Positions 10,080 to 14,334 of a DNA stretch of 38,212 nucleotides are shown here, piece after piece. Both the position numbers and the translations under genes were made by a program. The stretch is from the IMG/VR virus record IMGVR_UViG_3300043426_000141, positions 1 through 38,212 of that record; one strand, written 5' to 3'. This stretch comes from a virus. The first letter of the stretch is position 1. Each line of letters begins with the position of its first letter. Under the pieces are notes generated by a model that was not told the DNA's origin, did not search any database, and saw only the letters and a program-made list of their open reading frames with translations.

Positions 10080-10373
10080 ATGCAAGACCAACTGGATATT
10101 GCGGCCGCCTCTGCCGCCGCTTCTGCAGCCAAGATAACCGCCTACGGAAGTTCCGCAGTGGCGGCCGGGGTCGGGTGGGTCATGTCGTCTGGCCTTGGGC
10201 TGCTGATCAGCGGGGTCGGGGTCATCGGGGGGCTGTGGCTCTCGTGGCACTTCCAGAAAAAGGCCTATGACCTCAAGAAGCTCGCCGACGACAGAGAGCA
10301 TGCCCTGCGGTTGCTGGAACACGAGGCCCGCGTTGCCCTGCACAACACCCGCACCCGAAAGGACCGACCATGA
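10080..10373 (+). CDS. Holin-like membrane protein
   Basis: A 97-residue protein with GAGG just upstream of its ATG. An Ala/Ser-rich amphipathic N-terminus (1-25) leads into a hydrophobic stretch at about 27-56 containing several glycines, then a charged tail with helices (FQKKAYDLKKLADDREHALR). Size, membrane segment, charged C-terminus and position two genes before the endolysin fit a small holin or pinholin. The single clear segment is unlike classical three-segment lambda holin. The endolysin product itself has a second membrane module, so which one triggers lysis is open. Confidence 0.6.
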   Translation: MQDQLDIAAASAAASAAKITAYGSSAVAAGVGWVMSSGLGLLISGVGVIGGLWLSWHFQKKAYDLKKLADDREHALRLLEHEARVALHNTRTRKDRP

Positions 10374-10708
10374 GCAAGATTGTCTTCACCCGTCTGCAGA
10401 TGCCGACGCTCACGGACCTGATGGGCCGCACGCCGGCTCAGGGCGTCCCAATCGGCGCGCTGACTGCGCTTGTGCAGGAGGTCCGCTCCAAGCTCCCGGA
10501 CGAGCAGGAGTGGAACAGCGCCACCGTGTACGGCACGGAGCATCTGAGCATCAGCTATGACAACCACCTGACGCCAGACGAGGAACTGGCCCTGCGCGTG
10601 CAGGCGCTTGAAGAAGCCCAGCGCGAGGCGCGCGGCCTGCTGCCCCGCGAGGGCGAGCCGCTGCGCCCTGAAGAGCTGGCCCGCCTGCGGCAGCTTCTGG
10701 GGGCGTGA
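10370..10708 (+). CDS. Hypothetical protein in lysis cluster
   Basis: A 112-residue protein with ATGA overlap to the holin-like gene and its own stop overlapping the endolysin start region. The N-terminal half is mixed (FTRLQMPTLTDLMGR). The C-terminal half is a charged helix rich in Glu, Arg and Leu (EELALRVQALEEAQREARG). There is no signal peptide or membrane span, so it does not look like an Rz spanin. I do not recognise the family. Confidence 0.7.
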   Translation: MSKIVFTRLQMPTLTDLMGRTPAQGVPIGALTALVQEVRSKLPDEQEWNSATVYGTEHLSISYDNHLTPDEELALRVQALEEAQREARGLLPREGEPLRPEELARLRQLLGA

Positions 10709-11829
10709 TGATCACCCCGGCCATCCTGCAGGCGGCCATGGGCTGCACGCAGGAGCGTGCGCTGCTGTTCGCCCGCCCGCTGGCCGAGGCCTGCGAGCGC
10801 TTCAGCATCGACACGCCCGCGCGCCTGGCCGCCTTCCTGGCGCAGATCGGCCACGAAAGCGGCGGCCTGCGCTACGTCACCGAGCTGGCCAGCGGCGAGG
10901 CCTACGAGGGCCGCAAGGACCTGGGCAACACCCACCAGGGCGACGGCGTGCGCTTCCGGGGCCACGGCCTGATCCAAATCACAGGCCGCGCGAATCACGC
11001 CGAGATGCGGCCCCTGCTGATCCTGGCCGGCTATGACGAAGTGCCCGACTTCGAGGCCCACCCCGAGCGCCTGACCGATCCGCGCTGGGCCGCCGCAAGT
11101 GCTGCCGCCTACTGGCACAAACGCAACTTGAGCGCACTGGCCGACGCAGGCCGCCCGGAAGATTTCGAGCGCATCACCCGCCGCATCAACGGCGGCTTGA
11201 ACGGCCAGGCCGACCGCCTGGTGCGCTGGGAGCGCGCGAAGGCCGCGCTGGCCCCAACGGTCAAGGAATCCTTGACACCTGAAACCACCACCAAGGAGAG
11301 CGTCATGCCCATCCCTGCATTCATCGGCGCGGCGCTGCCGCTACTCATCGAGTACATCCCAAAGCTGGGCAAGATGTTCGGGTCTGGCTCCGAAGTGGCC
11401 GAGCGCAACATCAAGGCCGCCGAAATGGCCGTCACCATCGCCCAGGCCGCCGTTGGCGCAAGCAACGCGCAGGAGGCTGTGGAGATCATCAAGTCCAACC
11501 CCGAGGCGGCGGCCAAAGCACAGCAGGCCATTGAGGCGCGCTGGCTGGAGCTGACCGAGGCCGGTGGCGATGGGATCGCGGGGGCGCGTAAGGCTGACGC
11601 AGAGCGGAGCGGCAAGCGTGATCTTCTGTGCAGCCCGAGTTTTTGGGTCACGGTGCTGCTGCTGCCGCTGGTTTACATGGTGGTTGGCAGCGTGGTCGGC
11701 CTGTGGGGCATCGAGTGGCCGAGCGATGTGCGGGCAGCCATTGCCACGGCTGTCGTGTCGCTGATCGTCGGCGGGGCTGCTGGGTACTACTGGGGCCAGA
11801 CGACGAGCCGTAACCGGACGCTGGGGTAA
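10705..11829 (+). CDS. Endolysin (GH19-type) fused to a two-span membrane module
   Basis: A 374-residue protein. Residues 1-185 match the glycoside hydrolase 19 (chitinase-like muramidase) type of phage endolysin, with 'AAFLAQIGHESGGL' holding the probable catalytic Glu51 and then 'FRGHGLIQITGR'. Residues 186-200 are a Thr/Glu/Lys linker. Residues 201-374 form a second unit with a helical part and two membrane spans at about 312-334 and 342-363. Typical endolysins stop near residue 190. An in-frame ATG at 11305 has a strong Shine-Dalgarno, so the second unit may also be made alone. Start is GTG 10705 or ATG 10708. Confidence 0.85.
   Translation: MMITPAILQAAMGCTQERALLFARPLAEACERFSIDTPARLAAFLAQIGHESGGLRYVTELASGEAYEGRKDLGNTHQGDGVRFRGHGLIQITGRANHAEMRPLLILAGYDEVPDFEAHPERLTDPRWAAASAAAYWHKRNLSALADAGRPEDFERITRRINGGLNGQADRLVRWERAKAALAPTVKESLTPETTTKESVMPIPAFIGAALPLLIEYIPKLGKMFGSGSEVAERNIKAAEMAVTIAQAAVGASNAQEAVEIIKSNPEAAAKAQQAIEARWLELTEAGGDGIAGARKADAERSGKRDLLCSPSFWVTVLLLPLVYMVVGSVVGLWGIEWPSDVRAAIATAVVSLIVGGAAGYYWGQTTSRNRTLG
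11305..11829 (+). CDS. Possible internal-start product: membrane module of the endolysin gene
   Basis: Within the endolysin frame, AAGGAG lies six bases before an ATG at 11305, giving a 174-residue protein beginning MPIPAFIGAALPLL and ending in two membrane spans. In many betaproteobacterial phages a separate small membrane protein of this kind follows the endolysin. Here there is no stop between them. It may be a dual-start gene giving both a fusion and a free holin-like or antiholin-like protein. The Shine-Dalgarno is seen; independent translation is inference. Confidence 0.5.
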   Translation: MPIPAFIGAALPLLIEYIPKLGKMFGSGSEVAERNIKAAEMAVTIAQAAVGASNAQEAVEIIKSNPEAAAKAQQAIEARWLELTEAGGDGIAGARKADAERSGKRDLLCSPSFWVTVLLLPLVYMVVGSVVGLWGIEWPSDVRAAIATAVVSLIVGGAAGYYWGQTTSRNRTLG

Positions 11830-11913
11830 AAGGCGCCGGATGATCTTCTTGCGCACATGATCGCGGCTCAACTGCAGCAGCTTTGCGACGCCGCCCAAAT
11901 CAATCTCGTTCAT
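11830..11913 (-). pseudogene. 5' remnant of a helix-turn-helix regulator gene
   Basis: The ATG at 11913 overlaps the stop of the gene before it (ATGA), as in an operon. The first 27 residues read like the N-terminus of a small DNA-binding protein (VAKLLQLSRDHVRKKIIRR, a helix-turn-helix pattern of the AlpA/excisionase type). The frame then runs straight into sequence antisense to the endolysin and stays open to 11341, with unnatural composition. The likely reading is a regulator gene truncated where the lysis cluster was joined to the early operon. No convergent terminator is visible here. Confidence 0.55.
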
Positions 11914-12431
11914 TCTCCGTACTCCAGTCCAATCTGCTTTGCGTCGTCTGCAAGCTCTTGCAGCGTGTCTTTGATCTGCACCCCTGCGCGCTCTGCTGCC
12001 TGGGCGTAGGCCCAGCTGGCAAACGCTTCCAAGTCGCTGTCGTCTTTTATGCCGTCTTCGCCGCTGTACCAGTGGCCGCCGCCAAGGCTCTGGATGTAAG
12101 GCTTTGACCCGGCCTCGACCTCTTCATCCGTCAGCGCCGGAATGGCTGGCGCGACGGGGGCGGTGTAAATGGGCCGCACCCATGGACGTTCGCAGGTGCC
12201 CGAGATAGAAGTCATGATGACGCTTCCTGGCTCAAGTGACTTGATTCGATCCAGCGCCATCGGGTCAATCCACGCCACCGGCTCCACAGCCTCCAGGCGC
12301 TCCAGTTCGGCGCGGAGGGCGTCAATTGCCAGCGATGTGCGCGACCGCCACTCGCCCTGGTGTGGCACTAACCCGGCCTGCGGGTGCTCCATCGCCTCCA
12401 GCGCCTTGCGCATTACTTCAATCGCGGTCAC
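11910..12431 (-). CDS. Hypothetical early protein
   Basis: The start is set at GTG 12431 because AAAGGAG lies seven bases upstream; the more upstream ATG at 12527 lies in the recombination-site region and lacks a ribosome site. This gives 173 residues. It contains a helical N-terminus (MRKALEAME), the fragment 'VEPVAWIDPMALDRIKSLEPG' and an acidic C-terminal domain with 'SGEDGIKDDSDLEAFASWAYA'. Similar modular hypotheticals are widespread in betaproteobacterial prophages. It is the first gene outside the cassette array on this side. Function unknown. Confidence 0.75.
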   Translation of the reverse strand: MTAIEVMRKALEAMEHPQAGLVPHQGEWRSRTSLAIDALRAELERLEAVEPVAWIDPMALDRIKSLEPGSVIMTSISGTCERPWVRPIYTAPVAPAIPALTDEEVEAGSKPYIQSLGGGHWYSGEDGIKDDSDLEAFASWAYAQAAERAGVQIKDTLQELADDAKQIGLEYGE

Positions 12432-12540
12432 TTCGAACTCCTTTGTCCAAGATTCCAAACCGCCAGCGACAACCCTTACAACCGCCGGTTTTGCCCATGC
12501 GTTATGCGCATGACCAGCGCCCGACAAGGACTTGCGAGCG

Positions 12541-12588
12541 GCGGGTCGGTGTTATGCGGCGGGGCTTGCGCCCTATATCGCGTTAGGC
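12541..12588 (+). mobile_element. attI-like site at the left border of the cassette array
   Basis: This border ends in the core GTTAGGC (12582-12588), whose bases from 12583 on pair perfectly with the R'' box of the first attC (13135). It has no left attC arm. Its sequence resembles the end of class 1 integron attI1: GTTATGCGGCGGGGC (attI1: GTTACGCAGCAGGGC), then CGCCCTA, a six-base spacer (seven in attI1), then GTTAGGC, with CGGGTCGGTGTT upstream echoing attI1's GGGTCGATGTT. A further GTTATGC lies exactly 50 bp upstream at 12501. The comparison is with attI1 from memory. It could instead be a secondary (non-attI) insertion site. Confidence 0.6.
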
Positions 12589-12840
12589 GTGTTGCGCACC
12601 GCCAGCATTCCTGGCCCGCACAATTTCGCGGCACTGCTCGCGCATCAGCTTGGCATTCGCCAGCGCGTCGTGCCGGGTGCAAAACGCATAGCCCGCTTCA
12701 GTGCCCACCCCAGCGCCGTAGATCGTGCCAATCCAGCCACGCCACAAGGCGCGGTTGCGCACCTGCTCGAAGCGCTCGGCATCAATGTCGTCGTCCAGCG
12801 CGTTCGCGTAGGCTGCCACTTTGTCGGTCAGGTCAATCAC
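12583..12840 (-). CDS. Cassette 1 gene B: hypothetical protein
   Basis: An 85-residue protein whose ATG overlaps the previous stop by four bases (ATGA), so it is coupled to the first gene of the same cassette. It is mostly helical and charged (VAAYANALDDDIDAERFEQVRNRALWRGW), with a short 'GTEAGYAFCTRHDALANAKLMREQCREI' segment. Its TAA stop is formed by the recombination core GTTAGGC, so the coding sequence runs exactly to the cassette edge. No membrane span or known motif is visible. Function unknown. Confidence 0.75.
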   Translation of the reverse strand: MIDLTDKVAAYANALDDDIDAERFEQVRNRALWRGWIGTIYGAGVGTEAGYAFCTRHDALANAKLMREQCREIVRARNAGGAQHA

Positions 12841-13106
12841 AGCAATGCTCCTTGGTGGCGGCTCGGGGCCTGCGCACGGTCAATCGCGCCCAGCAGGTCG
12901 GCCAGCTTCTCGGCCTCGTCGCTGTCGTCCGGGTCAATCGTGCGCAGCACCGCCGCGCAGTCAGTCAGCAGGCCCAGCAGCACGGCATGTTCGCCTTCAA
13001 TGCGTCGGCCAATCTCGTCCACCTTGTCGCACTCTGGGCCGTTGAGTTTGAATCCAGCGTCCCACAGTTCATCCAGTAGCGCGGTTGCAATCTTGTCTTG
13101 TCTCAT
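12837..13106 (-). CDS. Cassette 1 gene A: hypothetical protein
   Basis: An 89-residue protein preceded by AAAGGAA seven bases upstream of its ATG. It is acidic and helical, with 'RQDKIATALLDELWDAGFKL' and 'DPDDSDEAEKLADLLGAIDRA', and has no cysteine pairs or membrane spans beyond a short hydrophobic helix. It starts 29 bases after attC 13135-13188 on the coding strand and shares the cassette with the downstream overlapping gene. Two-gene cassettes are less common than single-gene ones. I cannot name a family. Confidence 0.75.
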   Translation of the reverse strand: MRQDKIATALLDELWDAGFKLNGPECDKVDEIGRRIEGEHAVLLGLLTDCAAVLRTIDPDDSDEAEKLADLLGAIDRAQAPSRHQGALL

Positions 13107-13134
13107 CGTCGTTCCTTTCGCTTCTCCACCACAC

Positions 13135-13188
13135 GCCTAACCGGGCGCTCAAGCGGACGCAGAGCGCCGCTTAGCTGTTGGGTTATGC
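13135..13188 (+). repeat. attC site 1 (54 bp)
   Basis: The R'' box GCCTAAC (13135) and R' core GTTATGC (13182) enclose imperfectly paired arms, CGCTCAAGCGG on the left and CCGCTTAGCTG on the right. The left arm has one extra base (C), the asymmetry that orients attC on the plus strand. The central segment GACGCAGAGCG is the terminal loop. The stop codon of the gene at 13183 lies in the R' core. Confidence 0.9.
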
Positions 13189-13524
13189 GTCAATGGCTCT
13201 GCGCGCAGCCGCGCCGATTTGCGGAGTCCACATAGAGGCCACCGCCACGCACACAGCGCGTCGGCCCCAGTGCTGCAGGCCGAACGACTCGTTCGCCTTG
13301 ATGGCGGCCTCGATGCCCTCATCGTTGAAAGCAAAGACGGTGCTGCGCGCAAAGTCGGCCCTCGTGAACTCGACCGTCAGATCGAACTGCTCACGCAGCT
13401 TCACGCTGTCTTGAGGGATGTTCAGCGGGTCGCCAACGTCGCGCCCAGCCACATCCCGCACGCGGCTCACCAGCACATCGTTACTTAGGGTTGCGGCAAT
13501 GGCTGACTTTTCTCTCGGGTGCAT
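13183..13524 (-). CDS. Cassette 2 gene: hypothetical protein
   Basis: A 113-residue protein with CTGGAG seven bases before its ATG, beginning 22 bases after attC 13546-13615 on the coding strand. It has mixed helical and beta character, including 'SKLREQFDLTVEFTRADFAR'-like and 'GLQHWGRRAVCVAVASMW' stretches. The C-terminal 'TPQIGAAARRAIDA' ends in a TAA contributed by the recombination core. It has no membrane span, signal peptide or known catalytic motif. It is the only gene in its cassette. Function unknown. Confidence 0.75.
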   Translation of the reverse strand: MHPREKSAIAATLSNDVLVSRVRDVAGRDVGDPLNIPQDSVKLREQFDLTVEFTRADFARSTVFAFNDEGIEAAIKANESFGLQHWGRRAVCVAVASMWTPQIGAAARRAIDA

Positions 13525-13545
13525 ATGACTACTCCAGAATTTGAC

Positions 13546-13615
13546 TCATAACCTCTCGTTGCAGCCGAGTTACTCCGGCTGCGCCTGCGTGCCCGGCTGA
13601 ACTCGGGCGTTAGAA
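13546..13615 (+). repeat. attC site 2 (70 bp)
   Basis: R'' TCATAAC (13546) and R' GTTAGAA (13609) enclose arms CGTTGCAGCCG and CGGCTGAACTCGGGC. The right half closely follows the classic attC half seen after aadA cassettes (CGGCTTAACTC, spacer, GCGTTAGA). The left arm again has one extra base (GTTGCAG against GTTCAG). The centre includes the second inverted element CCGGCTGCGCCTGCGTGCCC. Confidence 0.9.
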
Positions 13616-13634
13616 CTCATGCAGATCAAAAGCA

Positions 13635-14255
13635 TCACGCGATCAACCTGCCCTGGCGCTGCGCATCTTCAATGCGGCGGCAGGCTATGTCGAAATACTT
13701 TGGTTCCCGCTCAATCCCGATGAAGGCCCGACCGAGGTTCATGCAGGCAACGCCTGTTGTGCCGCTGCCCATGAATGGATCGAGCACTGTCTGAGCCTTT
13801 GGAGCAAACGCCAAGCACCAAAGCATCAGCGGCACCGGCTTCTGAGTCGGATGCTCCTTGCCTTCGCTGGCGAGTTGCGCGCGGGCATAGCGGAACGTGC
13901 GGACGGGAATGTCCAGGTTCGTCCACGCCATCTCCGCGTGCCCGGAGCTATGCTCTTGCATCTTGTCCCACAAGAGCCAGCCGCGAACGGGCGGAAGCTG
14001 GTAGTAATTCCCGCCCCAAATAATCGCCACTGGAAACGCGGCAAAGGATTCAATGATTCCGCCGCCCGTTATCTCGCGGTCCCATTCCGGCGCAACCTCA
14101 AACTGCCCGCCCCATTCGCCCTTACCACCGGCAAGGCGATCACCCAATCCATACGGCGGATCAGTCACAACCGCATCCACCTTCGGCAGCGTCGGCAGAA
14201 TGTCCCGGCAGTCGCCCAGATACAGGTTTGCGTCGCCTATCGTTTCAATCCGCAT
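13635..14255 (-). CDS. Cassette 3 gene: DNA N4-cytosine/N6-adenine methyltransferase
   Basis: A 206-residue SAM-dependent DNA methyltransferase that would modify an amino group of a base at a short DNA site. Catalytic motif IV DPPYG is at residues 32-36 and the SAM-binding motif DPFMGSGTTG at 159-168, so the order (IV before I) is that of the beta class. 'HPTQKPVPLM' (135-144) is also typical. The length is compact, with a reduced target-recognition region, as in phage orphan enzymes. GAGGAA lies before the ATG. No restriction endonuclease partner is present, so protection from host restriction is the likely benefit. It is alone in its cassette, with 15-bp complementary ends. Confidence 0.9.
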   Translation of the reverse strand: MRIETIGDANLYLGDCRDILPTLPKVDAVVTDPPYGLGDRLAGGKGEWGGQFEVAPEWDREITGGGIIESFAAFPVAIIWGGNYYQLPPVRGWLLWDKMQEHSSGHAEMAWTNLDIPVRTFRYARAQLASEGKEHPTQKPVPLMLWCLAFAPKAQTVLDPFMGSGTTGVACMNLGRAFIGIEREPKYFDIACRRIEDAQRQGRLIA

Positions 14256-14274
14256 GGGGTTCCTCGTGCATGAG

Positions 14275-14334
14275 TTCTAACAACGCGTTGCAGCCGATGC
14301 CGCTTCGCGTCACGGCTGAACTTGATCGTTAGAC
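14275..14334 (+). repeat. attC site 3 (60 bp, canonical)
   Basis: This is the best match to the classical 59-base element. R'' TTCTAAC (14275), left arm CGTTGCAGCCG, loop region GCCGCTTCGCG shared with the aadA attC, right arm CGGCTGAAC, and R' GTTAGAC (14328). One unpaired G in the left arm sets the plus orientation. The C-terminal codons of the gene at 14310 run into the site. Confidence 0.95.

Follow-up and report, generated by a model that had tools for sequence, protein, structure and literature searches.

Does a single reading frame of an uncultured phage give two lysis proteins, and, if so, what would each of them do? The question is raised by the stretch of DNA analysed here (the window; 38,212 bases, IMG/VR virus record IMGVR_UViG_3300043426_000141), in which one open reading frame (ORF) on the plus strand (10705..11829) joins a glycoside hydrolase family 19 (GH19) endolysin to a C-terminal membrane module with an internal start of its own. 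The original prediction held that both a membrane-tethered endolysin and a free holin-like protein could come from this frame, and it is supported by the comparative evidence presented below: the locus is probably a dual-product lysis gene, coding for a free holin like TeaA of Vibrio phage ICP1 and for an endolysin that the same kind of holin domain would tether. The further idea of a compact lysis-timing device remains a hypothesis. Sequence comparison supports that enzyme and module are fused, that this fusion and the internal initiation region are conserved, and that the module is homologous to a tested holin.

The frame 10705-11829 contains 374 codons without a stop, which confirms that the endolysin runs uninterrupted into a membrane unit of 174 residues. 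Two candidate first starts are present, GTG at 10705 (374 aa) and ATG at 10708 (373 aa); the ATG is probably the one used, since it overlaps the TGA of the preceding ORF (10370-10708) as TGATG. The endolysin family phrog_181 is matched by residues 1-194 with E 1.5e-57, and GH19 endolysin structures are matched as well (9ms7, 46% identity, TMt 0.90; also 9eoi, 4ok7, and others), placing the enzyme domain (10705..11259, plus strand) in GH19 by sequence and by fold. E51, E60, and E68, candidate catalytic glutamates, are invariant in the 17 GH19-class rows. In the AlphaFold2 (AF2) model of the fused protein, a confident enzyme (predicted local distance difference test, pLDDT, about 91-98) is followed by a disordered linker (residues 187-201; 11263..11307, plus strand; pLDDT <50), which varies among relatives, and by a helical C-terminal part. 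With its predicted membrane helices, the protein has the layout of endolysins in which an N-terminal muralytic domain precedes a C-terminal transmembrane (TM) helix. Pfam gave no match for the enzyme of the window or for its module.

The module (11305..11826, plus strand; 174 aa) is modelled with helices at module residues 3-24, 30-102 (broken), 111-131, and 140-163, the model being of only moderate quality (pLDDT 75; predicted template modelling score 0.46). The helices at 111-131 (11635..11697) and 140-163 (11722..11793) are clearly hydrophobic and correspond to the two membrane spans noticed at first; a third helix, weaker, borderline, and hydrophobic or amphipathic, at residues 3-24 (11311..11376), had been missed. 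Foldseek found no significant counterpart of the module among viral models (best VHML ORF20 with E 0.22; an entry named 'Holin of 3TMs' came at E 2.0). By sequence, tblastn with the module of one relative (L016) reached Vibrio phage proteins including ICP1 TeaA (28.9% identity, 94% cover, E 1e-6); TeaA itself belongs to phrog_1544 (E 1.7e-53), a family matched by the modules down to E 7e-8; and hhalign of a 51-module profile with TeaA extended over the full length (probability 97.8, E 1.1e-12, 165 columns). The module is, as far as sequence can tell, a remote full-length homologue of TeaA and a member of the TeaA-like holins, and hole formation is predicted for it; the description 'holin-like' is thereby borne out and sharpened to 'TeaA-like holin'. 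TeaA is the experimentally tested holin of ICP1, which acts alone and for which hole formation and collapse of the proton motive force have been shown; its authors assigned it to GTA_holin_3TM (PF11351) (PMC7182436). No match to PF11351 was obtained up to E 1 for any of 13 modules, nor for TeaA.

Relatives were collected by alignment-driven scans of IMG/VR in which loci were picked by the module (80 loci and the window); with one locus left out that runs off its contig (L038), 80 loci including the window are decidable. In 77 of these the frame runs on from a recognised endolysin into the module, and nine further contigs from a third scan all carry a fusion as well. Among the 77, the enzyme is of GH19 type in 17, of lambda-R type in 32 (the domain of L010 matches lambda lysozyme 1am7, E 5e-25; phrog_90), and a GH24 phage lysozyme in 28 (PF00959 match for L013; phrog_7), these three types being mutually unrelated. 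The other three loci are split: the endolysin gene lies in another frame and overlaps the module gene by 16 (L050), 34 (L066), or 46 nt (L069), and the module gene has an ATG of its own at the same boundary as in the fusions. A quick tree was made of 52 modules, TeaA serving as outgroup; its rooting is weak because TeaA is distant. By parsimony, the enzyme type changes 18 times on this tree, and for each type at least 3-4 changes are forced by strongly supported branches. Modules close to each other can carry different enzymes (L022 with lambda-R and L026 with GH24; L024 with GH24 and L025 with lambda-R).

At the boundary itself, the AAGGAG-N6-ATG described in the original prediction was found at 11293-11307 (Shine-Dalgarno (SD) sequence 11293..11298, spacing 6; ATG 11305..11307; plus strand), and both elements are kept in relatives. 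The motif occurs four times in the window, compared with 0.16 expected, the other three occurrences being at the starts of sizeable ORFs. Its conservation was assessed at 49 non-redundant fused boundaries (L038 included) over 14 codons where the module begins, an SD core of at least 5 nt at a spacing of 3-11 being required and positions elsewhere in the same ORFs serving as control. A start codon was present at 49/49 boundaries, and a start with SD core at 34/49, compared with 13 of 1087 control windows (Fisher p 1e-42, nominal because the loci are related). The SD core falls in codon registers 0, 1, and 2 at 17, 13, and 4 loci, respectively, and encodes Lys-Glu, Gln-Glu, Trp-Arg-Ser, Pro-Gly-Gly, and other peptides, which argues for conservation of a DNA signal rather than of one amino-acid motif; the internal start is, on this comparison, conserved as DNA, beyond the protein alone. 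Predicted mRNA folding, computed over 50 nt at a time, is least stable precisely at the boundary, at -7.7 kcal/mol, and strengthens on either side to about -15 to -17, the GC content being similar; at the module boundary in the window the value is -4.5, whereas the rest of the ORF averages -16.8.

For the long form, the argument is that dozens of phages have no stop in the linker, variable though it is; for the short form, that an SD sequence, a start codon, and a dip of unstructured mRNA are kept at the boundary, that three relatives have the module as an overlapping gene of its own, and that TeaA is a tested holin which stands alone. Initiation at 10708 (or 10705) would give the GH19 endolysin with a C-terminal TeaA-like holin domain, and initiation at the internal ATG at 11305, served by its own SD sequence, would give only the TeaA-like holin. 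This free holin would accumulate in the inner membrane and open a lethal hole, as TeaA does, and the long form would be anchored in the same membrane by the common domain, a flexible linker holding the enzyme in the cytoplasm. The cytoplasmic side is expected for the enzyme because there is no apparent signal sequence and because the C-terminal tail is basic, to which the positive-inside rule was applied. When the hole opens, the enzyme would thus already be waiting at it (delivery), and an excess of the long form may slow hole formation (brake), because a folded enzyme of about 200 residues cannot follow the N-terminal helix of the module across the membrane. Delivery and brake are mutually compatible roles, and the ratio of long to short product would set the time of lysis. 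We infer in this way that both products accumulate, what their topology is, and that the long form delivers or brakes.

Several observations weigh against a dual-product gene. TeaA is a distant homologue of the module (21-29% identity). One GH24 group (L042, L043, L051, L055) has the start codon and no recognisable SD sequence, so that those members may make little or none of the short form. At single loci, the synonymous-codon null mostly gives 0.3-0.9, the SD sequence being made of the usual Lys-Glu or Gln-Glu codons of the ORF; this null is uninformative for one locus because AAG GAG is a natural Lys-Glu codon pair here, and the case for a conserved SD sequence is carried by the set of loci and by no single one. 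Finally, a second small holin-like gene lies upstream (10080..10373, plus strand; 97 aa, one TM segment), so that the module may not be the sole holin and a second holin or an antiholin may take part.

This upstream gene leads to the alternative that survives best, which we regard as unlikely: the module would be an antiholin, an anchor, or an accessory membrane protein, and the holin would be the product of 10080-10373. That product matches holin families weakly (phrog_4237 with E 4e-6; phrog_20), and other small TM proteins occupy the upstream position in several relatives. These upstream TM genes vary, however, and in many relatives the surveyed stretch showed none; the gene of the window is itself not conserved, whereas the module is constant (in loci that were chosen by the module), and TeaA, its homologue, is a holin by itself. 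Between the upstream gene and the endolysin lies a 112-aa ORF of unknown function (10370..10708, plus strand), which the TGATG overlap would couple translationally to the endolysin. A spanin (Rz/Rz1) gene was not recognised beside the lysis gene in a search of window positions 10300-14300 that was not thorough; a minus-strand ORF downstream (13635-14255), with DPPYG and GSGTTG motifs, resembles a DNA methyltransferase.

Somewhat less likely still is that only the long form is made, as a membrane-anchored endolysin comparable to LysAP of phage AP1, M4Lys, or the Enc34 protein, with the internal start as a relic of a separate holin gene. Endolysins with C-terminal TM segments exist and can lyse without a holin; the GH24 members without an SD sequence fit this view, and the split relatives branch near the TeaA outgroup, making an ancestor with separate genes plausible, if weakly supported given the rooting. 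A relic SD sequence would be expected to decay, however, whereas 34 of the 49 boundaries keep theirs, in different registers and in an unstructured initiation region. As an observation in its own right, the same GH24 group offers a natural contrast for the short product. A negligible chance is left to the loss of a stop codon through faulty assembly or sequencing (the original prediction had named 11262-11304 as the place for such an error), which is ruled out by 76 relatives on other contigs that are fused in frame through linkers of differing length and sequence.

The design of this gene differs from canonical lysis, in which endolysin and holin are separate proteins and the enzyme diffuses freely: each enzyme molecule from the fused gene should carry a holin domain. 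Three unrelated enzyme types have been exchanged, and the holin part and the internal start have stayed. More tentatively, this may be an architecture widespread in uncultured phages, in which the long form would combine enzyme, tether, and built-in antiholin, the short form would make the hole, and the ratio of the two starts would set the lysis time, the enzyme being swappable with the timer untouched. Searches of the modules against 50,697 isolate phage records gave no fusion and only TeaA-type proteins of Vibrio phages, reached from L016 alone, and no relative was found in the bacterial species genomes or plasmids searched. The portal encoded in the window is of SU10 type (PF23899), with about 29-34% identity to its best isolate matches; the closest relative of the fused gene (in L001) stands directly after an 829-aa ORF (1405-3894 of L001) that looks, by eye, like a siphophage tail-tip protein. 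Set beside the portal of the window, this neighbour suggests that the cassette may move between phage types.

Parts of this arrangement are found in known systems. TeaA and the module both consist of an N-terminal helix, a polar helical part, and a TM hairpin; TeaA is encoded by itself, free of any endolysin and with its antiholin, ArrA, encoded separately upstream, whereas the module is fused to an endolysin. The S gene of phage lambda has two in-frame starts and gives a holin (S105) and an antiholin (S107), which brakes by means of its two additional residues. The likeness lies in two products from two in-frame starts, of which the longer is possibly the brake; the extension is of two residues in lambda, compared with about 200 residues of enzyme here, and no homology is claimed. 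Tethered delivery of the enzyme by holins, and an enzyme fusion acting as brake in the manner of S107, can now be tested. AP1 LysAP, BSPM4 M4Lys, and Enc34 ORF39 likewise have an N-terminal muralytic domain and a C-terminal membrane part; their TM segments are short, and the portions of the reports available mention neither an internal start nor holin homology.

Two-polypeptide endolysins (CTP1L and others) give a full-length enzyme and, through an internal start with its own ribosome-binding site, a C-terminal product (PMC9430671, PMC4777826). A conserved in-frame internal start with its own SD sequence within one gene is found here as well; their short product, however, is a cell-wall-binding subunit that joins the enzyme, in phages of Gram-positive hosts, whereas here it would be a membrane holin homologue. 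A survey of internal starts did not cover the phages of Gram-negative hosts, in which such starts were considered improbable (PMC9430671). A natural holin-endolysin fusion of Clostridium sporogenes (TpeE family) has been seen in six genomes (PMC9527704); it too has holin and endolysin in one polypeptide, but the holin is N-terminal and of a family different by name, all endolysin is fused, and no free holin was proposed. In the open-access literature, no report was found that combines a C-terminal holin with an internal start in one endolysin gene. Internal-start endolysins, C-terminal TM endolysins, and a holin-first fusion are known already, and the comparison suggests that internal-start endolysins, so far surveyed for Gram-positive hosts, also exist in a form whose second product is a holin.
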